DNA of 64,000 bases from Desulfobacterales bacterium (GTDB taxonomy: Bacteria > Desulfobacterota > Desulfobacteria > Desulfobacterales > JAFDDL01): NCBI GenBank assembly GCA_034003325.1, contig JAVEYW010000018.1, positions 1 through 64,000 of the forward strand. Direction: 5' to 3'. A program made the position numbers and the translations under genes. The notes beneath the pieces were generated by a model that was not told the origin of the DNA, made no database searches, and was given only the letters and a program-made list of their open reading frames with translations. Shown piece after piece: positions 38,188-63,366 of this stretch (the stretch's first letter is position 1; every line of letters begins with the position of its first letter).

Positions 38188-38796
38188 ATGAAGAAAGAAT
38201 CAACCCAAAGCGACTGCGGCCAAGTGGATATTTCCGAGCAGGATGTGCTCAACGCCATGAAAGCGATGCAGGGGTATATCGACATTACACCCGCCGATTT
38301 TAAGGAAGTGTATCGGGCGGCTTACAACCTTGCAAAAAATCGAATCCTGAATTCTTTAACCGCCGCCGATGTGATGACGACCTCGGTTCATTCCATCGGG
38401 TTGGAAATGGATCTCATCGAAACCGCCGCATTGCTGGCCGAAAAGGGAATTTCAGGCGCGCCGGTGGTGGATCACGAGGGAAAAGTCGTGGGCGTTGTAT
38501 CTGAAAAAGATTTTTTAGCCCAAATGGGGGCCGGACAAACAGGCTCTTTTATGCAAGTCATCGCGCATTGCTTGAAAAATAAGGGATGTGTTGCAACGCC
38601 GATGTTAAACCGGGTTGTCCGCGACATCATGACGGCGCCGGCCATCACGGCTAAAGCGGATACCTTGATTTCGAAAATATCGACCCTTTTTTCGGAAAAA
38701 AAGATCAATCGCCTTCCGATTATCGGCGGTGACGGAAAGCTCGCCGGCATTGTGACACGTTCGGATCTTGTTAATTCCTATTGCAGGCTCGGGTAA
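38188..38796 (+). CDS. CBS domain pair protein
   Basis: 202 aa, ATG with GGGAGAG upstream. A helical N-terminal part (about 1-58) is followed by two CBS motifs: AADVMTTSVHSIGLEMDLIE (about 58) and VRDIMTAPAITAKADTLISK (about 149), each with the GAPVVD or RLPIIG strand. It overlaps the HPP gene region by a few bases and is probably co-translated with it. It is likely a nucleotide-responsive regulator of the HPP membrane protein. Confidence 0.88.
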   Translation: MKKESTQSDCGQVDISEQDVLNAMKAMQGYIDITPADFKEVYRAAYNLAKNRILNSLTAADVMTTSVHSIGLEMDLIETAALLAEKGISGAPVVDHEGKVVGVVSEKDFLAQMGAGQTGSFMQVIAHCLKNKGCVATPMLNRVVRDIMTAPAITAKADTLISKISTLFSEKKINRLPIIGGDGKLAGIVTRSDLVNSYCRLG

Positions 38797-52488: not shown

Positions 52489-52929
52489 CTAAAAATCGCC
52501 AATCTTTCTCAACATCAGTTTTGTTTCGGCTTTTCTGATGCGTTCTTCCTGTTCATCCTTTCGCTGCCGCGCAATTACCAGTTTAGATTTCAATTCCTTG
52601 AAATCAGCCGGCTTTAAAAGATAGTCAAATGCGCCCAATTGCATCCCTTTCACAGCGGTTTGTGTTGTGCCGTGCCCGGTCAAAAGGATGACTTCCACAA
52701 TAGGGAATTTCTTCTTGATTTCACGCAACGTTTCGATACCGTCCATGCCCGGCATTTTGATATCCAGGACAACCACGTCGATGGCTTCGGATTCAAGGAT
52801 CTTCAGACACTCGCTGCCATTGTAGGCTTTATGCGCGATTTCGCCCGAATCGGTGAGCCGCAGGGCCAGAATATCCGTAAAATCTTCTTCGTCGTCCACA
52901 ATCAAGACGCGGATGGGTATTTTTACCAT
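52489..52929 (-). CDS. Stand-alone response regulator receiver protein
   Basis: 146 aa. ATG at 52929 is chosen because GGAG lies about 9 nt upstream; an ATG at 52944 has none. It is a receiver with VLIVDDEED (acidic pair 12-13), phosphoacceptor Asp56 in VVVLDIKMPGMDG, LLTGHGT (Thr switch) and YLLKPAD (Lys). A short charged helical tail follows but no DNA-binding domain. It is the last gene of the minus-strand signalling locus, 33 bp after the REC-kinase gene, and is a likely phosphoryl-group relay or sink for it. Confidence 0.92.
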   Translation of the reverse strand: MVKIPIRVLIVDDEEDFTDILALRLTDSGEIAHKAYNGSECLKILESEAIDVVVLDIKMPGMDGIETLREIKKKFPIVEVILLTGHGTTQTAVKGMQLGAFDYLLKPADFKELKSKLVIARQRKDEQEERIRKAETKLMLRKIGDF

Positions 52930-52962
52930 GGTGCGTATCTCCATTTATGGTGGTGACGGCTC

Positions 52963-54099
52963 TTAAATCTCGTCTTTCAATTCGGGACGAATCGGCAGGC
53001 GAAGTTGAAACAGGGCGCCTTGACCGAGTTTGCTTTCAACCGTGATGTTCCCGCCGAGCTTTTCAATGATCTTTCGCGAGACATAAAGACCCAATCCCGT
53101 GCCTTCACCGGTCGGCTTAGTGGTAAAAAACGGATCAAATATTTTTTCCAGGTTTTCCACGGCAATACCGCCGCCCGTATCTTGAACCTGAAGCACCATA
53201 TCGTTTCCGTCGAGGGTAGCCCCTATCGTGATCACTCCGCCGTTCGGCGTAGCCTGAATCGCATTGTTCACTAGGTTTAGAAGGACTTGGCGAAGCCGAA
53301 AGGGGTCCGACCAGAAGGATGGATTTTCTTCCGACTTAAAGACAATCGAAATATTATGATTGCGCGCTTCGCGGTTCACCAGTTGCATGACATCCGAGAT
53401 AAGATCCGCGGCCTGAATTTCGATCACGGTGTCATCGGCTTTTTGGACCATGCCAAGCAGCTGATGGGTAATGCGTTTGGCCCGGCCGATCGCCAGTTCA
53501 ATCTTATTCAGCGCCGTGTTGAACTCTTTTGAATGGGGGAAGTCCGGTCCGGCATCTTCAAGAATGCTTTTCATCCATCCAGCCCACTCCTGAATAATAG
53601 CAAGGGGGTTGTTGATTTCGTGCGCCACGCCCGTGGCCAGGGTACCCAGGGACGCTAGGCGCTCCGTAACGATGAGCTGGCGGTTTATTTTTTCCCGAAA
53701 TTCTGCTTCCCTTGTTTTTTCAACGGTCCGCTGTTTTTTATCGTAAGCCTGCCTGATTTTTTCAACTAAATGTTCCAGTTCTACGGGTTTGCTCAGGTAA
53801 TCAAACGCCCCGGATTTAATGCCGGTGACGCCATCGGGCGTGGAGGCATGCCCCGTAAGCAGAATAACTTCCGTGTGCGGATATTTGCTTTTGATCTGTG
53901 ATAGACATTCCAGGCCGCTGATGCCCGGCATTTTAACATCCAGGACAACCACGTCAAAGTCTTGCTCAGCCATCATGGCCAGGCACGCTTCTCCGCTATC
54001 GGCGGTTTCTGGAATGATGTTGCGTTTTTTCAGGCGATTGGCGATGGTGCTTAAAAAAACGGCCTCGTCGTCCACCATGAGCAGTCGTAATGACTTCAT
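52963..54099 (-). CDS. Soluble REC-histidine kinase hybrid
   Basis: 378 aa, ATG at 54099. It has an N-terminal receiver (DD 10-11, Asp54 in [13 protein letters not shown], Lys104 in YLSKPVE), a coiled-coil linker (about 118-150), a dimerisation box with [18 protein letters not shown] (His160), and a HATPase with [15 protein letters not shown] and [14 protein letters not shown]. No membrane segment, so it is cytoplasmic and receives its signal through its receiver. It lies 21 bp downstream of the DASS transporter gene. Confidence 0.94.
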
Positions 54100-54120: not shown

Positions 54121-55701
54121 TTAAAAGATTCCTAAAAATTTCCACCAAACCTGAGCGACAAGCACCAGAACACCCAACAGAATCGGGGTGGCCATTAGGC
54201 CAACCTTGGTTAAATCCGATGCCTTGAAATATTTATAGCTAAAGGCGATGGCATTGGGTGGACATCCGATAACCAGCAGCATGGCAAAGGATGTGGTCGT
54301 TCCGAAACACAGCGCAACGACACGCGGATCAATGCCTTCCATTTGAGCGATGCCAATCGCAACCGGAAGAATCAGCGCGGCCGCCGCCACATTGGCCATG
54401 ATATTGGTGGCTAACGCTCCGATTACCCCGACGCCGATAAACAGCAGAAGCCATCCGCCGCCCTGAACAATCGGAAAGAAAAGATTCGCAAAATAATCCG
54501 CGGCGCCCGTAGCCCCCATGGCAAGCCCCAGAGAGATACCGCCGCCGAAGATAAAGAGCGCGGTCCCCCATTCAAGGTTGGTGTGAATATCTTCCCATGT
54601 GAGGGCACCGAAGAGGATCAGCGCTGAAACGCCGAGCAGGCCGGTCACGGAGTAATCCATGCCATGAAGCCCTTTGGTCAACCAGAGCCCGAGCGTGAGC
54701 AAGGTGATCACCAGCGTTTTTTTCTCCAACCTTGACCAAGGTCCTGCCGATTCATCAAACTGCGGCAGCCGGATGCCTTTTTCCGGTCTGAAGAACAGGT
54801 AAACAATGAGCACGGCAAAGGGAACCGTGATGAGGGCCGCCGGGCCCGCAAACTTGATCCAGTCAAAAAAAGTAATTTCAACGCCGGTGAATTCTTTAAG
54901 AAAGGCGGCTGCTACCAGGCACCGACCGCCGCCGATCAAGGAACCCATGCCACCGCAGGACGTGGCAAACGGAATGGAGAGCATCATGAACTTGGCTGCC
55001 CGGGAATGGGGGGCAATGCCGGCGGCCCGCATCAGCGGTTGCATCGTGACAATACCGATCGCGCAGGCGGCCGCATCATGGATAAATGAGGAAGCGATGC
55101 CGAGCCCGATCGCCAGAACAAAGGTAAAGCGAATCATGGAGGTGCCCGCCAGCCGAATGATGAAAAACCCCAGACGCCGGGTAAGGCCGGACTTGTCGGC
55201 CGATATGGCAAAGATCAAGTAGCTCATGATGAAAACCACTACCGGATGCATATAAGGCGCCCATGCGCTTTTAATATCCATAATCCCCATACCGGCCAGC
55301 AGCACGCCGATGCAGATAGCGGTAATCTCAAGGGGGATCGGTTCAAAAATAAACAGAAAAATCAGTATGGCCAGCACGGCGAAAAATTTCTGCAGCGTGG
55401 GGGAAATGCCGTCCACGGTGCTGATGTGAATATTCGGCAGGTCTAATACGCTTGCCTTTTCCCGCAAGAGCGTAAGACTTGCTTCAGCGCCGGCCGAATG
55501 CTTGGCGCGTATGATATAGGGTGCCGATGACCGATGGGCTTTACCGACCGGGTCGAACTGGCCCTTCACCGCATTGAACAGGGAACGCGATGCATCCCCC
55601 GAGATTTTAAATGTGGTGCCCTCCGGGCGCGGCAGCATCAAAATGACCGCTGCGCCGAGCAGTGCGATACCAAGCTGAAAAAATTTTGATTTATAGAACA
55701 T
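54121..55701 (-). CDS. SLC13/DASS family sodium:anion symporter
   Basis: 526 aa from ATG 55701, preferred because AAGGGG lies 5 nt upstream; a GTG at 55707 overlapping the receiver stop is possible. About 11-13 membrane segments. A first helix (about 5-25) is followed by an unusually long hydrophilic loop of about 85 residues before the main transporter core. Typical elements: FEPIPLEITAICIGVLLAGM, HPVVVFIMSYLIFAISADKS, ATSCGGMGSLIGGGR and, near the C-terminus, FGTTTSFAMLLVIGCPPNAI. DASS carriers move sulfate, di- or tricarboxylates with sodium. The SNT motifs are modified, so the substrate cannot be read. Confidence 0.9.
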   Translation of the reverse strand: MFYKSKFFQLGIALLGAAVILMLPRPEGTTFKISGDASRSLFNAVKGQFDPVGKAHRSSAPYIIRAKHSAGAEASLTLLREKASVLDLPNIHISTVDGISPTLQKFFAVLAILIFLFIFEPIPLEITAICIGVLLAGMGIMDIKSAWAPYMHPVVVFIMSYLIFAISADKSGLTRRLGFFIIRLAGTSMIRFTFVLAIGLGIASSFIHDAAACAIGIVTMQPLMRAAGIAPHSRAAKFMMLSIPFATSCGGMGSLIGGGRCLVAAAFLKEFTGVEITFFDWIKFAGPAALITVPFAVLIVYLFFRPEKGIRLPQFDESAGPWSRLEKKTLVITLLTLGLWLTKGLHGMDYSVTGLLGVSALILFGALTWEDIHTNLEWGTALFIFGGGISLGLAMGATGAADYFANLFFPIVQGGGWLLLFIGVGVIGALATNIMANVAAAALILPVAIGIAQMEGIDPRVVALCFGTTTSFAMLLVIGCPPNAIAFSYKYFKASDLTKVGLMATPILLGVLVLVAQVWWKFLGIF

Positions 55702-55703
55702 AA

Positions 55704-56141
55704 TCACCCCTTAGGCAGGCACGCGGCTTGCCGTTTTCGATGGGCATTCATGATTTTTTCCAGCAATTCCTCAAATTCACAGGGTTTGGACAGATAGTCG
55801 AACGCGCCGAATTCAATTCCCTGACGCGCGGCGGTTTCAGACCCATGGCCGGTCAGCATGATCACCATAAGCCGAGGGGCCATTTTACGAAATATTTTAA
55901 GGACCTCAATGCCATCCATGTCTTCCATTTTCAAGTCCAGAACCGCCACATCATATTCATTTTTGCGCAGCAACTGGATGCCTTCTGAACCGCTGCTTGC
56001 CTTGGATACGGTAAAGCCTCTTTTCCGAAGCCGGTTTGCCAGTGTTTCGACATATACTTTTTCATCATCCACCAGCAGAAGACGGACGCCTTCGCCGGAG
56101 TTTCGAAGAAAATCCGGCAAAATCGTTTTGATTCGGGACAT
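55704..56141 (-). CDS. Stand-alone receiver protein upstream of the DASS gene
   Basis: 145 aa. ATG at 56141 chosen because AGGAGA lies about 8 nt upstream; the longer frame to 56264 reads into a dispersed repeat. A receiver with VRLLLVDDEKVY (acidic pair 25-26), Asp69 in VAVLDLKMEDMDG, LTGHGSE and YLSKPCE. No output domain. Its stop directly abuts or overlaps the start of the DASS transporter gene, so the two are translated together. This is the unlinked counterpart of the REC-DASS fusion at 59186. Confidence 0.92.
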   Translation of the reverse strand: MSRIKTILPDFLRNSGEGVRLLLVDDEKVYVETLANRLRKRGFTVSKASSGSEGIQLLRKNEYDVAVLDLKMEDMDGIEVLKIFRKMAPRLMVIMLTGHGSETAARQGIEFGAFDYLSKPCEFEELLEKIMNAHRKRQAACLPKG

Positions 56142-56211
56142 AATTTGTTTCTCCTGCGCCGGTCCGCAACGCCAAACCGGCGGCTTTCTTAACCGCTGCG
56201 TAGCTCCTTTA

Positions 56212-56300
56212 TGAGAAACATGCACGAAAAAGCGTGCATAACTGGAAAAGGCCATTGGCCGCACTGCTGCCCAGCAACCCAGCTGCCCAGCTTCCGGACA
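56212..56300 (+). repeat. Dispersed hairpin repeat, partial copy C
   Basis: It starts GAGAAACATGCACG, then GCGTGCATAA forming a hairpin, then a diverged middle, then CCCAGCAACCCAGCTGCCCA and a CTTCCGG end. The order of hairpin followed by CCCAGC units is as in copies A and B but similarity in the centre is low. It fills most of the gap between two receiver genes. Confidence 0.55.
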
Positions 56301-58569: not shown

Positions 58570-59061
58570 TTACTCTTCTCCCTGATCCAACTCCCTGAGT
58601 TTGCGAAGAATCGCCCGGGGACTGCTGGAAGAAGAAATATTAAGAAGTTCATTCATCTTTTTTTCTTCAATTTTTTTCTTGTTCATGACCTTTTTCTTAT
58701 AAGCCCCCTGCAGGGCTTCAAGAAGACTGTCGAGTTCACAGGGTTTTTGAAGATAGGAAGTAATCCCTATTTTCGCGCATTCAACCGCGGAATCGATCGC
58801 ACCGTGACCGGTCAAGATCACGGCTTCCAGCCACTGATGTTTCTGCTTGAGCTGTTTAAGTGTCTCCTGCCCGGATATGCCCGGCATTTTCAGATCAATC
58901 AAGGCGATATCCACCGGGTGGGTTTGCGCGGCTTCAATCGCCTTATCTCCCCGATTGGCGGTGATGACGTTAAAGTCTCTTATCTCCAGGCTCTTTCGAA
59001 TGGATTCCAGAAACTGTTCTTCATCATCCACAATGAGCAGGTTGATCTTATCTTTTGCCAT
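58570..59061 (-). CDS. Stand-alone response regulator receiver protein
   Basis: 163 aa, ATG at 59061 with GGAG about 8 nt upstream; the longer frame to 59130 has no ribosome site. INLLIVDDEEQF (acidic pair 12-13), Asp56 in [23 protein letters not shown] and YLQKPCE with Lys. The C-terminal tail is charged and Ser-rich (KKKIEEKKMNELLN, then SSSSS). It lies between the REC-DASS gene and the Cache kinase gene. Confidence 0.91.
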   Translation of the reverse strand: MAKDKINLLIVDDEEQFLESIRKSLEIRDFNVITANRGDKAIEAAQTHPVDIALIDLKMPGISGQETLKQLKQKHQWLEAVILTGHGAIDSAVECAKIGITSYLQKPCELDSLLEALQGAYKKKVMNKKKIEEKKMNELLNISSSSSPRAILRKLRELDQGEE

Positions 59062-59185: not shown

Positions 59186-61252
59186 TCAGCTCAGGCCGAA
59201 CCATTTCCAGTATCCGAGAATGACCCACAGATAGAGCACCGCCATGCTGATAAGCCATACGGCGCCGCCATAAACGAGAAAATCCTTTGTCGTTACAAGC
59301 TGCTCGCCGGTTTCCGGATCCCTTGCAACCGCGTACACGATGGCGTTATTCGGTGTGCCGATAATCAGCATGTGCGCAAAAGAAGAAGAAAAGGCCGTGG
59401 CCAATCCCACCGCGATGGGGGATGTTTGTGAAAGGGTCGCCATCGGAACGGTGATGGGCCCGACAGCCGCCACCGTAGCCCCGTCGCTCATGAAATTCGT
59501 GAGAATGCCGGTGATAAAGCTTGCCGACATGATAAGACCATCTCCGCTTTTCATAACGGCGGGAAGCATATCCACAAAGCTGCTGGCCAACCAGAGCGCC
59601 GCACCGGTGGAAGCAAGCCCAGAGCCCATGGCGCTGGCAGCCGCATACAGCGCAACGACATCCCAGTGAATTCCGTTAATGTCTTTCCAGCGAAGGACGC
59701 CTAAAATATTCAACAGGACAAGGCATAAAATCGCGGGCCCCCCCATTCCCACCTTGTCCGACAAGGTGATCCACAGCACGACCACCAGAATAATGATTGC
59801 AGCCGATTTATATTCATCCGGCGTCATCTTGCCGATTTTTTCCGCTTCACGCTTGACTTCTTCCGCGACATTGATGGCTTTGGTCTTTATTTTACCGCGA
59901 AAAACGAAAAGAAAAAAAACGGACACTAGCAGGGTGCAAACCGGCACGAAGGGAAGCCCCATTTTGACCCATTGTCCGAATGACACTTTAATGCCGTAAT
60001 CCGATAGAATACCCAGCATGACGGCGTTTCTGCCGCCGGCTGCCGGGGAACCAGGCCCGCCGAGGTTTCCACAGAAGGTCAGGGTCAGCAGCATAAACAC
60101 CACCAGATACCGGTCCTGTTTCAGACCTGCGGTCCGAATGGCCGCCATATAGACCAGCAACAAAACAGGGGCGATAAACGCCACCAATGCGTGCTCGGAA
60201 AGAAACCCGGCAGTGATCGCGAGCATCGGGGCGAAGAATAAGGCAAAGCGGGTAAGAGAAGAACTGGTACCCAGCAACAAAATGCCGATGCGTCGATCCA
60301 GACCGGTCTTGCTGATGGCGGCAGCGAGGGCCAACACGCCGAAGATGAAAATCACCGAATCCTTGGCATAGGCCTGGGCCACCATATCGGCCGGATAAAC
60401 ACCGAAAAAATACATCAGCACACCCACCAGAAGGGCCGTTATACCGATGGGAACGGCACCGGTCGCCCAGAAGAGGGCTGCTACCACCAGCACACCGATC
60501 ATGACCTTGGCCTTCATAACGACCGTGTCCACGCTCGGGGCCGACTTAACGACTTTGCCGTCAGCGGTTTTCGTTTTTTGGGTTAGTTTGGCCTTTTCCC
60601 CATAATACTCGGTAATGGTTTGTCCGATCTCCATTTTGCGGTAGTCGGAAAACCCGTTGATGCTCTCCATGGGATTGCCGGCCTTTTTTTCGGACAAAAG
60701 GGAGGTCAGTTTCGGGGCGGGCGTGATGAGAATGCAAAGAAAAAGAATAACCCCCAGAAGGATGAATCCGGGCCTGGCATTTTGAACCCCGATGAGCCAG
60801 TCTTTCAGTCCGGTTTTCGCCACATCCGGAATTTCATGCTTGGCCAGTGCGTAAACCCGCTCCTGAGCCGCATTTTTGATCGCCGTAATCAGTTCATCCA
60901 GAGGGCATGGTTTTTCCAAGTACGAAAACACATCATGCTTTCCGGTCACCCGCGCCGATTCGATCGAGCCGTGGCCGGTATGCATGATGATCTGCACTTC
61001 CGGCCTGATCTTTTTCAACTCCTTTAAGGTTTGAATCCCGTCCATGCCGGGCATTTTCTGGTCGAGAATAACCACATGGGGGTTTTCATGCCGAACGATT
61101 TTGATGGCATCCTCTCCGTTGTTGACATCGAGCACATCAAAGCCCCGCAACCCCAGCTGCTTGGAAAGGCTCTCCCTGAAACGGTCTTCATCATCAATTA
61201 AAAGGATCTTCAGCTTTTCATTTTTTCCATTAACACCGGTTTGCTTCTCCAT
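59186..61252 (-). CDS. Receiver domain fused to a SLC13/DASS transporter
   Basis: 688 aa, ATG at 61252. Residues about 13-135 are a complete receiver: acidic pair Asp20-Asp21, phosphoacceptor Asp64 in VVILDQKMPGMDG, Thr92 in MHTGHG, Lys114 in YLEKPCP. A linker (about 135-160) leads to the first membrane helix (about 162-178), then a hydrophilic loop of about 70 residues, then a full DASS core of about 12 segments: LFWATGAVPIGITALLVGVL, DSVIFIFGVLALAAAISKTG, GGPGSPAAGGRNAV, FMSDGATVAAVGPITVPMA and FAHMLIIGTPNNAIVYAV. The receiver is predicted cytoplasmic. All phosphorylation residues are retained, so the transporter may be gated or tuned by phosphorylation from the neighbouring kinases. The fusion is open from end to end with no frameshift. 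Substrate unknown. Confidence 0.94.
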   Translation of the reverse strand: MEKQTGVNGKNEKLKILLIDDEDRFRESLSKQLGLRGFDVLDVNNGEDAIKIVRHENPHVVILDQKMPGMDGIQTLKELKKIRPEVQIIMHTGHGSIESARVTGKHDVFSYLEKPCPLDELITAIKNAAQERVYALAKHEIPDVAKTGLKDWLIGVQNARPGFILLGVILFLCILITPAPKLTSLLSEKKAGNPMESINGFSDYRKMEIGQTITEYYGEKAKLTQKTKTADGKVVKSAPSVDTVVMKAKVMIGVLVVAALFWATGAVPIGITALLVGVLMYFFGVYPADMVAQAYAKDSVIFIFGVLALAAAISKTGLDRRIGILLLGTSSSLTRFALFFAPMLAITAGFLSEHALVAFIAPVLLLVYMAAIRTAGLKQDRYLVVFMLLTLTFCGNLGGPGSPAAGGRNAVMLGILSDYGIKVSFGQWVKMGLPFVPVCTLLVSVFFLFVFRGKIKTKAINVAEEVKREAEKIGKMTPDEYKSAAIIILVVVLWITLSDKVGMGGPAILCLVLLNILGVLRWKDINGIHWDVVALYAAASAMGSGLASTGAALWLASSFVDMLPAVMKSGDGLIMSASFITGILTNFMSDGATVAAVGPITVPMATLSQTSPIAVGLATAFSSSFAHMLIIGTPNNAIVYAVARDPETGEQLVTTKDFLVYGGAVWLISMAVLYLWVILGYWKWFGLS

Positions 61253-61314: not shown

Positions 61315-63366
61315 TTAACTGGCTTTTGTTTTAATCGGTAACGAGACGGTAAATTGAGTGCCGATCCCCGGCGTGGACGCCACATCGATTTCACCTCCGA
61401 GGGATTTGATGATGTTCTGAGAAACACTGAGCCCGAGCCCCGTCCCTTTGCCCACCTCCTTGGTTGTAAAAAATGGATTGAAGATATCGGGTAGAAGTTC
61501 CGGAGGAATACCACCCCCCGTATCTTTTATGATGACCTCTATATGCTGATCTTTTCTGCGGGTGGTAATCGTGATCGTACCGGCACCCGTGATGGCATCA
61601 CCCGCATTGTTGATGAGATTTAAAAACACCTGACGAATCTTATCGCTGTCCAGCAGAATTTCCGGAATGCCCGGATCGTATTCACGAACGATCTCGATAC
61701 CGGCGGTCTTGAACTCGCGTTCTTTTAACCCGGACATAACCTCATTTAAAATTTTATTCACATGGCACGGGATGAGTTTTGGCTCGTTTTTTCTCCCGAA
61801 ATCGAGCAGTTGTCGTGTTATGGTTCTGGCCCTGAAGGCGGCCGATTCAATGGCTTCAACCTCTTTCATCACATTTTCCCGGCTCGGCGTAAGACCGAAT
61901 TCCGGGTCGAAAAGATCTTTGATTACCCCACTGGCGGCGACGATAACGGCCAGCGGATTGTTGATCTCGTGAGCGACTCCGGTGGCCAGTTCCCCCACGG
62001 AGGCCAGTTTCGAGGCGTGAAAGAGCTGAATGCGCAACTCTTCGCTTTTATCGGCCGCCGCCTTGGACCAGCCGATCAGCCGGCTGTTGGCAAACCAGAT
62101 GCCTGCCGCGATGGAAAAAAAGATAATGCCGAGGCTGATCGTCATAATGCGCCGGCTGCGATACATGGCAGCGTGAGCGATGTTGAGGGGTTGTCTCACC
62201 AGCAGCGCCCAGGGGGCTTCCTTGAGCCATGCAAAACCGATCAACACGGCATTGCCGTTTTCCCGAATCTCCTCGACGCCGGAAAAAATATCCGTTGGGG
62301 GTATAAAGTCACTTTTCTCCAGCAATTCCCCCCGGTTCGGATCGACGATCTGGTAGCGGCCTTCCTTGTTGATCAGGGCGGATTCGACGGCCTTGCCGCG
62401 GCTGATGGCGCGAAGGAGCATATAAAACTTATCCGGATCCAGTGTGGCGCGCATGACAAAGGGCGCACCTTCGATAACCTGCCTGACGGCAATGGTGAAA
62501 TGCGGCTTATTTCGAAGTCCTGAATAAATATCACTGATAAAATAATGCCGATCTTGACGCAGAAGCGTTTTAAACCAGGTTTCGTTGCTGTAATTTTTTC
62601 CCTGTAACTCGGGAAACGGACCCGCATATCCGATTTGAATGCCTTGGGCATTTAAAAAACCGACATCACAGAAGGCATCACTGGCTTGTCTCAGGTTCTG
62701 AAGGCACTGCGCCATGATGCCGACGGAAGGCGAAAGGGTAAATTCATTGCCGTGAAAGAGGCTGAAAAGATTAACGACACGTTCCTGCAAAAACAGATCG
62801 ACCGTGTTTTTTTGGCTGTTTGAAAGGGCCTCTAAGTTCAATCGGCCTGTGTTTTTCAGCGTGGTGCTGAACTGAAATTGAAAATAAGTGAAAAAGGCCG
62901 CGTAGGGCAACATGAAGGCCGCCAGCAGCCCGAGCGCCAGCTTCAGCTTGAGTTCCTTAAAATAGATATCTCGTTTTTCTTTTTGATTTTTAATGTGTTG
63001 TCTTTTTTCAAAGGCGGATTTGATTTTTTCGGAAATATCCTCGATGTCGACCGGTTTCATTAAATAATCGGCCGCGCCCAGTTTAACCCCCTCGACTGCG
63101 GATTCCACCGTGGCATGACCGGTGAGCATGATGACTTCAACGAGCGGAAAATCATGCTTGATCTTTTCCAAGGTCGCGATGCCGCCCATGCCAGGCATTT
63201 TGACATCCAGAATGACCACATGAATGTTCATTTTTTTCAATTTCGCCAATGCCTCCGCGCCGCTGGCGGCGGTCTCGACGGCATACCCTTTTTTCTCCAA
63301 CAGCTTTTGGGTCGTTGTCAGATATCTTTCTTCATCATCCACCAGCATGACGTTGATGTTCGGCAT
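61315..63366 (-). CDS. Membrane hybrid kinase: REC-TM-Cache-TM-histidine kinase
   Basis: 683 aa, ATG at 63366. An N-terminal receiver (acidic pair Asp10-Asp11, Asp54 in [13 protein letters not shown], Lys104 in YLMKPVD) precedes membrane helix 1 (about 136-158, [20 protein letters not shown]). A periplasmic Cache-type domain follows with [15 protein letters not shown] and [20 protein letters not shown], then helix 2 (about 410-430). The kinase has a dimerisation box [19 protein letters not shown] (His about 465) and a HATPase with [18 protein letters not shown] and [14 protein letters not shown]. It is the first gene of the minus-strand locus and lies 62 bp upstream of the REC-DASS fusion, its probable partner. 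Confidence 0.94.

Follow-up and report, generated by a model that had tools for sequence, protein, structure and literature searches.

The window, by which we mean the whole 64,000-nucleotide stretch of DNA analyzed here, encodes a 688-residue protein, REC-DASS, in which a two-component receiver is joined in one chain to an anion carrier of the SLC13/DASS type. The reading that we favor, at a probability of roughly 0.6, is that this protein would mediate sulfate uptake in dissimilatory sulfate reducers and would be switched by two-component phosphorylation on the carrier itself; the phosphotransfer, the gating, its direction, and the substrate are what we infer. On the wider proposition of a response-regulator class with an anion-carrier output, in which phosphorylation would directly set the rate of sulfate uptake in many sulfate-reducing phyla, in fused (cis) as well as split (trans) forms, our judgment is evenly balanced.

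The frame at 59186–61252 begins with ATG and contains no internal stop, bearing out the uninterrupted 688-residue frame described in the initial annotation, to which we add the strand (minus). Translation places the receiver residues Asp20, Asp21, Asp64, Thr92, and Lys114 exactly where they had been reported, with the phospho-acceptor Asp64 encoded by the minus-strand codon 61061–61063. Pfam recovers Response_reg (PF00072) at residues 16–126 (90.5 bits against a gathering cut-off of 30.2; E 1e-25) and Na_sulph_symp (PF00939) at residues 237–686 (131.9 bits against 27; E 4.4e-38), the chain as a whole combining Na_sulph_symp/CitMHS with Response_reg and containing no Pfam kinase domain. An AlphaFold2 prediction, a step that the initial annotation had suggested, was built on an alignment of 79 natural fusions and gave a model with a mean pLDDT of 86.6 and a pTM of 0.80, in which a receiver fold at residues 13–135 (Z about 20–21 against solved receivers) precedes an SLC13 fold at residues 145–688; this match and the Pfam result together sustain the earlier claim of a full SLC13/DASS membrane core behind the receiver. 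The predicted membrane domain aligns with human NaCT over residues 154–688 (Z 40.8; 2.3 Å over 432 residues), with Z scores of 37.0 to NaS1, 35.8 to yeast Pho90, and 34.3 to VcINDY, and Foldseek returned the human sulfate carrier NaS1 as the top match. The first membrane helix after the receiver and linker superposes on TM1 of the SLC13 fold, and the receiver therefore occupies the place of the SLC13 N-terminus; a poorly conserved loop (residues 180–245) follows this helix. The N-terminal side of TM1 is cytoplasmic in SLC13 proteins, and this family sidedness, combined with the predicted fold, places the receiver of REC-DASS on the cytosolic side in all probability.

Table 1. Features of the REC-DASS locus in the window
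Feature	Coordinates	Strand	Basis and remarks
REC-DASS fusion protein, 688 aa	59186..61252	minus	single open frame; Pfam; AlphaFold2 model; same fusion in best 80 of 193 candidates
Receiver domain, aa 16–126	60875..61207	minus	PF00072 E 1e-25; residue conservation; fold match
SLC13/DASS-type membrane domain, aa 145–688	59189..60820	minus	PF00939 E 4.4e-38; fold Z scores
REC-Cache-histidine kinase, 683 aa, likely cognate kinase	61315..63366	minus	Pfam; orthologues upstream of fusion in other phyla; dCache-type sensor fold
Stand-alone receiver, downstream partner	58570..59061	minus	probable start 59061, 163 aa; longest frame to 59130
Second Cache histidine kinase, 577 aa	56754..58487	minus	Pfam dCache_1, HisKA, HATPase_c; same order beside U528 DASS genes in relatives
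Stand-alone receiver, 143 aa	56320..56751	minus	PF00072 only
Stand-alone receiver, stop overlaps next DASS start by 4 bp	55704..56264	minus	PF00072; coordinates
Second, unfused DASS transporter, 528 aa	54121..55707	minus	PF00939, PF03600; passes TIGR00785 cut-off
REC-histidine kinase without Cache domain, 378 aa	52963..54099	minus	Pfam
Stand-alone receiver, 151 aa, last gene of probable operon	52489..52944	minus	PF00072 only

Full-length relatives (48–78% identity) with receiver and carrier in one frame were found in about 22 other genomes among 291 sampled from the same class. The genome-wide search for this architecture that had been proposed was then extended by an independent scan of one genome per species, and in all of the best 80 of 193 candidate loci the two domains again share a single frame. 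The titles of the fusion-bearing records name Desulfobacterota, Zixibacteria/GN15, Acidobacteria, Planctomycetes, Calditrichaeota, Gemmatimonadota, Kapabacteria, Fibrobacteria, Krumholzibacteria, Abyssobacteria, and others, about ten named phyla in all, a list that is approximate because titles of metagenome bins may be wrong. One genome (G050) encodes a fusion of 691 residues. An assembly or frameshift artifact joining two genes is conceivable, since unfused relatives have a REC gene adjoining the DASS gene, but it is ruled out for practical purposes by about 100 independent in-frame fusion records from separate collections, single-contig genomes among them, and by a linker that can be aligned; the fusion is accordingly not confined to this assembly, the outcome that the initial annotation had named as fatal to its proposal. 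A tree of 168 DASS domains gathers the 101 fused ones in a single group (support 98), whose neighbor consists of unfused carriers of about 555 aa (support 86).

The unfused relatives place the same two parts side by side. Several matches of 31% identity ran over receiver and carrier across stop codons and correspond to separate, adjacent REC and DASS genes; having been picked for REC-DASS adjacency, such split loci do not count as independent evidence. In a set of unfused carriers chosen without regard to this feature (L086–L096), 14 of 20 have a REC gene immediately upstream in the same orientation, and a Cache kinase is usually close by. The fusion thus unites two parts that are elsewhere encoded by closely paired genes, which is a classic indication that they work together. 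The pairing of REC and DASS genes also recurs elsewhere in the window's own genome, where a further DASS-type gene (641-aa frame; G000:C5:110495-114232) has receiver genes on both sides. Separately, at L057:14433-15925, a Yip1-like small membrane protein and a REC protein carrying a pair of CBS domains lie beside a member of a third DASS clade (about 617 aa), and REC proteins of this size recur in many relatives. Another genome (G169; loci L177 and L182) carries three DASS genes within one two-component cluster. Its equation with HRM2_38230/38270/38300 of D. autotrophicum, two of which are reported to be up at low sulfate, was considered and not adopted: the spacing fits, the remark on proline-260 in PMC5840216 misfits the DASS placed at 38300, and we keep the correspondence as a lead.

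Across 79 aligned fusion proteins, the phosphorylation site is preserved almost without exception: D20, D64, T92, and K114 are invariant (79/79) and D21 is present in 78, the sole fusion with an altered acidic pair (L155:8019-10052; Asp21 to Gln) having no kinase or REC gene among its neighbors. The linker is less conserved than the membrane core (top-residue frequency 0.62 against 0.75), with near-invariant positions at W152, G155, R160, and P161. The lower conservation of the linker, and the presence of seven receivers in nine genes at the window locus, as in sink-type networks, would suit a receiver that does no gating and acts as a tether, a stability tag, or a phosphate sink, either draining phosphoryl groups or holding the kinase near the carrier. 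A sink, however, would work without being covalently attached to a carrier, whereas this attachment has been kept across phyla as one clade, and the near-invariant linker residues suggest a defined mechanical coupling; we regard a receiver of this passive kind as decidedly unlikely, the least probable of the three functional alternatives that we weigh against phosphorylation-dependent gating.

The carrier moiety departs from characterized relatives at its presumptive binding sites. The SNT motifs of VcINDY bind Na+ and substrate (PMC13394699 for N151), and in our alignment the corresponding positions of REC-DASS, in the TM5 and TM10 loops, read S352-E353-H354 and S589-D590-G591. Residues S352, E353, S589, D590, and G591 are present in 79/79 fusions and H354 in 78/79; both SNT asparagines are therefore replaced, by an invariant Glu (residue 353) and an invariant Asp (residue 590), replacements that hint at a change in ion coupling or in substrate binding. 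Unfused DASS relatives of about 617 aa carry similar acids. REC-DASS also scores below the TIGR00785 cut-off (178.7 against 198.6 bits), for which reason we call it DASS-type and not a TIGR00785 member. Judged by sequence, the REC-DASS carriers are a divergent DASS-type clade whose coupling ion is not to be assumed; with the SNT motifs replaced, neither the substrate nor the coupling ion can be read across from VcINDY. Proton-coupled transport is possible, as a speculation.

In the window, nine consecutive minus-strand genes run from 63366 down to 52489, separated by gaps of 62, 55, 82, 2, 55, -4, 21, and 18 bp, and form a probable operon in the order REC-Cache-HK, REC-DASS, REC, Cache-HK, REC, REC, DASS (528 aa), REC-HK, REC. 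By Pfam, the cluster comprises seven receivers, three kinases, and two carriers, and none of the nine genes encodes a DNA-binding domain. The two adjacent Cache kinases from which the initial annotation had derived the phosphoryl group are both present (at 61315 and 56754), with the amendment that the 61315 kinase also has an N-terminal receiver of its own; a third, Cache-less REC-HK lies at 52963–54099. The REC gene at 55704–56264 and the DASS gene at 54121–55707 show this pairing in split form, the carrier belonging to a DASS clade of its own (about 528 aa).

Comparison of neighborhoods, likewise proposed at the outset, was based on fused loci with enough flanking sequence, drawn from the best 80 of 193 candidates. 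In 62 of 67 such loci, a histidine kinase is encoded upstream on the same strand, at most three genes away, and in 69 of 77 a short REC gene lies directly downstream. The upstream kinases are one family (34–64% identity to the 61315 product), other phyla included, and the downstream receivers are another (35–74% identity to the product of the window's gene at 58570); all 36 of the latter that were scanned are receivers, and none showed a match to an effector domain or an HTH. Directly upstream in about half of the fused loci is a gene of about 185 aa, the 12 scanned products of which are all CBS-domain proteins. From these gene orders, the minimal conserved unit comprises the kinase, optionally the CBS protein, REC-DASS, and REC, with the carrier as its sole effector-like member. 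Of the two partner kinases originally nominated, the 61315 type accompanies the fusion directly upstream, whereas the 56754 type stands, in relatives, beside other DASS genes and belongs to the second transporter module.

The sensor of the upstream kinase family has an invariant residue set (Y247, G249, P250, Y259, W264, Y281, G283, R285, H289, F290, T291, R306, and P311) and a dCache-type predicted fold that matches amino-acid-binding and taurine-binding domains, as well as a Desulfohalobium receptor, at Z about 20, in a model weaker than that of REC-DASS (pTM 0.50). In the window's REC-Cache-HK (61315–63366), the receiver precedes the first membrane helix, an arrangement common to several relatives; in others, a separate REC gene occupies that place. 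Distances between kinases correlate with those between fused receivers (r 0.76; partial correlation 0.44 given DASS; permutation test without relatedness control), which agrees with co-inheritance and is not counted as proof. Larger REC proteins of NtrC size and further kinases are encoded close to some fused loci (e.g., L062 and L068), and transcriptional control may therefore coexist.

Because a stand-alone receiver adjoins the fusion gene, the kinase might mainly serve that receiver. In a reversed reading, the conformation or flux of the carrier would alter the phosphorylation or dephosphorylation of its own receiver, making the carrier a co-sensor of the kinase and leaving the output to the downstream REC or other proteins. 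Transporter co-sensors of kinases exist, as in DctA/DcuB with DcuS and UhpC with UhpB, and the REC gene found after the fusion in most loci could be the real output. Against this, the downstream REC lacks an effector domain, which leaves a pathway ending there without an evident output; within the minimal set only the carrier is effector-like, and unfused relatives likewise pair a REC gene with a carrier. We consider a sensory role for the carrier unlikely, if less so than a passive receiver. The comparative data strengthen the proposal of a post-translational two-component output, which is favored by the invariant phosphorylation site, the conserved kinase, partners without a DNA-binding regulator, and unfused relatives that are mostly REC-paired.

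The phyletic distribution of the fusion points to sulfate. Among 46 carrier genomes outside Desulfobacterota, assigned by record title, full-length dsrA above the curated cut-off was detected in 36, at least a dsrA/dsrB-type match in 41, and aprA in 40; 43 have dsrA/dsrB or aprA, and three have neither marker. Within the phylum to which G352 belongs (record title Acidobacteria), dsrA is present in 26 of 297 genomes and the fusion in seven, all among those 26 (Fisher p 1.7e-8). For the phylum that includes G337 (record title Zixibacteria), the figures are 46 dsrA-positive genomes out of 132 and 34 with the fusion or a large piece of it, 29 of them shared (p=1.6e-12). Both p-values ignore relatedness, and genomes within one phylum are not independent. 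The five Zixibacteria-type carriers that lack dsrA have aprA and/or dsr fragments, and all 15 carriers among newly drawn genomes of that phylum are dsrA-positive. The window's own genome has dsrA, and its class offers no contrast for an association test, as 252 of 291 genomes there are dsrA-positive. DASS genes of sulfate reducers were listed by Marietou et al. 2018 as putative sulfate transporters, and some are up at low sulfate (PMC5840216). Sulfate is the best-supported substrate, by phyletic association only, given that co-occurrence reflects physiology and not the substrate itself.

The same gating could nevertheless act on a dicarboxylate or another dianion, such as sulfite, thiosulfate, or an organosulfonate. 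Organic acids and amino acids are common ligands of Cache kinases, and the sensor fold here matches amino-acid dCache domains; the SLC13 fold serves both substrate classes, with the citrate carrier NaCT giving the best Z score ahead of NaS1. The fusion is, however, nested closely within dsrA-positive and aprA-positive genomes in two phyla, and such nesting is unexpected for a dicarboxylate carrier, since dicarboxylate use is not limited to sulfate reducers. A different substrate is unlikely, and is the alternative to which we give the most weight.

Under the favored reading of phosphorylation-switched sulfate uptake, REC-DASS would be an SLC13-fold carrier, most likely for sulfate, with a cytosolic N-terminal receiver. 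The Cache kinase encoded just upstream would sense an extracellular ligand, autophosphorylate, and pass the phosphoryl group to Asp64, changing the surface of the receiver or its self-association beside TM1. As TM1 would be part of the fixed dimer scaffold, a receiver docked near it could alter the elevator motion or the dimer geometry, and transport by the elevator domain would be raised or lowered, the scheme accommodating activation and inhibition equally. The downstream REC and the CBS-pair protein would probably add phosphate competition and an energy-state input.

If this scheme is true, the consequences extend beyond a single locus. The known outputs of response regulators are directed at DNA, RNA, second-messenger enzymes, motors, and partner proteins, and a covalently linked membrane carrier would be a further output class, and bacteria would have phosphorylation control of nutrient flux on the scale of seconds, beyond gene expression alone. 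The fusion marks sulfate reducers in several phyla and thereby indicates a control point, so far undescribed, where sulfate enters the cell; this step supplies dissimilatory sulfate reduction and, through it, the formation of sulfide in sediments. The way in which these organisms match uptake to the sulfate concentration becomes a testable question with named residues, and the fusion itself is a candidate genomic marker for sulfate reducers of poorly known phyla. Its breadth of conservation and its tie to sulfate reducers lift it above an isolated case.

A survey of the open-access literature, with subscription papers and preprints outside its scope, found no account of a DASS/SLC13 or sulfate carrier joined to a receiver. 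In sulfate reducers, Clade C DASS proteins such as TOL2_19410, with group Cii members of up to 691 aa, resemble the fusion in length; the terms receiver, two-component, response regulator, and histidine kinase do not occur in the main text of the paper describing them (PMC5840216). Both halves of REC-DASS belong to known families and regulatory domains on DASS carriers are known; the receiver-DASS combination is apparently new.

Among known carriers, the human sodium-sulfate cotransporter NaS1 (SLC13A1), the top Foldseek match (Z 37.0), transports sulfate, but it has no receiver, and at 22–24% identity the similarity is too unspecific to prove the substrate of REC-DASS. VcINDY and the TIGR00785 family ("DASS family sodium-coupled anion symporter") share the fold (VcINDY Z 34.3) and PF00939, from which REC-DASS differs by the extra receiver, the long loop after TM1, and the replacement of both SNT motifs. 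Closest in design are yeast Pho87 and Pho90, which likewise carry a soluble cytosolic regulatory domain N-terminal to an SLC13-fold anion carrier (Z 35.8 for the Pho90 membrane part). Their N-terminal SPX domain restricts a DASS-type carrier, and its removal deregulates transport (PMC7381174). The view in the initial annotation that DASS carriers are normally regulated by substrate or expression thus needs qualification: direct regulation by an N-terminal cytosolic domain has this precedent, with SPX in place of a receiver (PMC7381174). SPX answers to inositol pyrophosphates, whereas Pfam finds no SPX at the REC-DASS N-terminus and Response_reg in its place, for which control by Asp phosphorylation is expected; substrate, kingdom, and signaling chemistry all differ. 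CbrA-type kinases, in which SLC5 and a histidine kinase are linked via STAC, similarly join a transporter to a two-component protein. The SLC5 transporter of CbrA sits on the kinase and is viewed as input; by Pfam, REC-DASS does not combine an SLC5 domain with a kinase in one chain, and its carrier, from another transporter family, is placed on a receiver, at the output side of the pathway.
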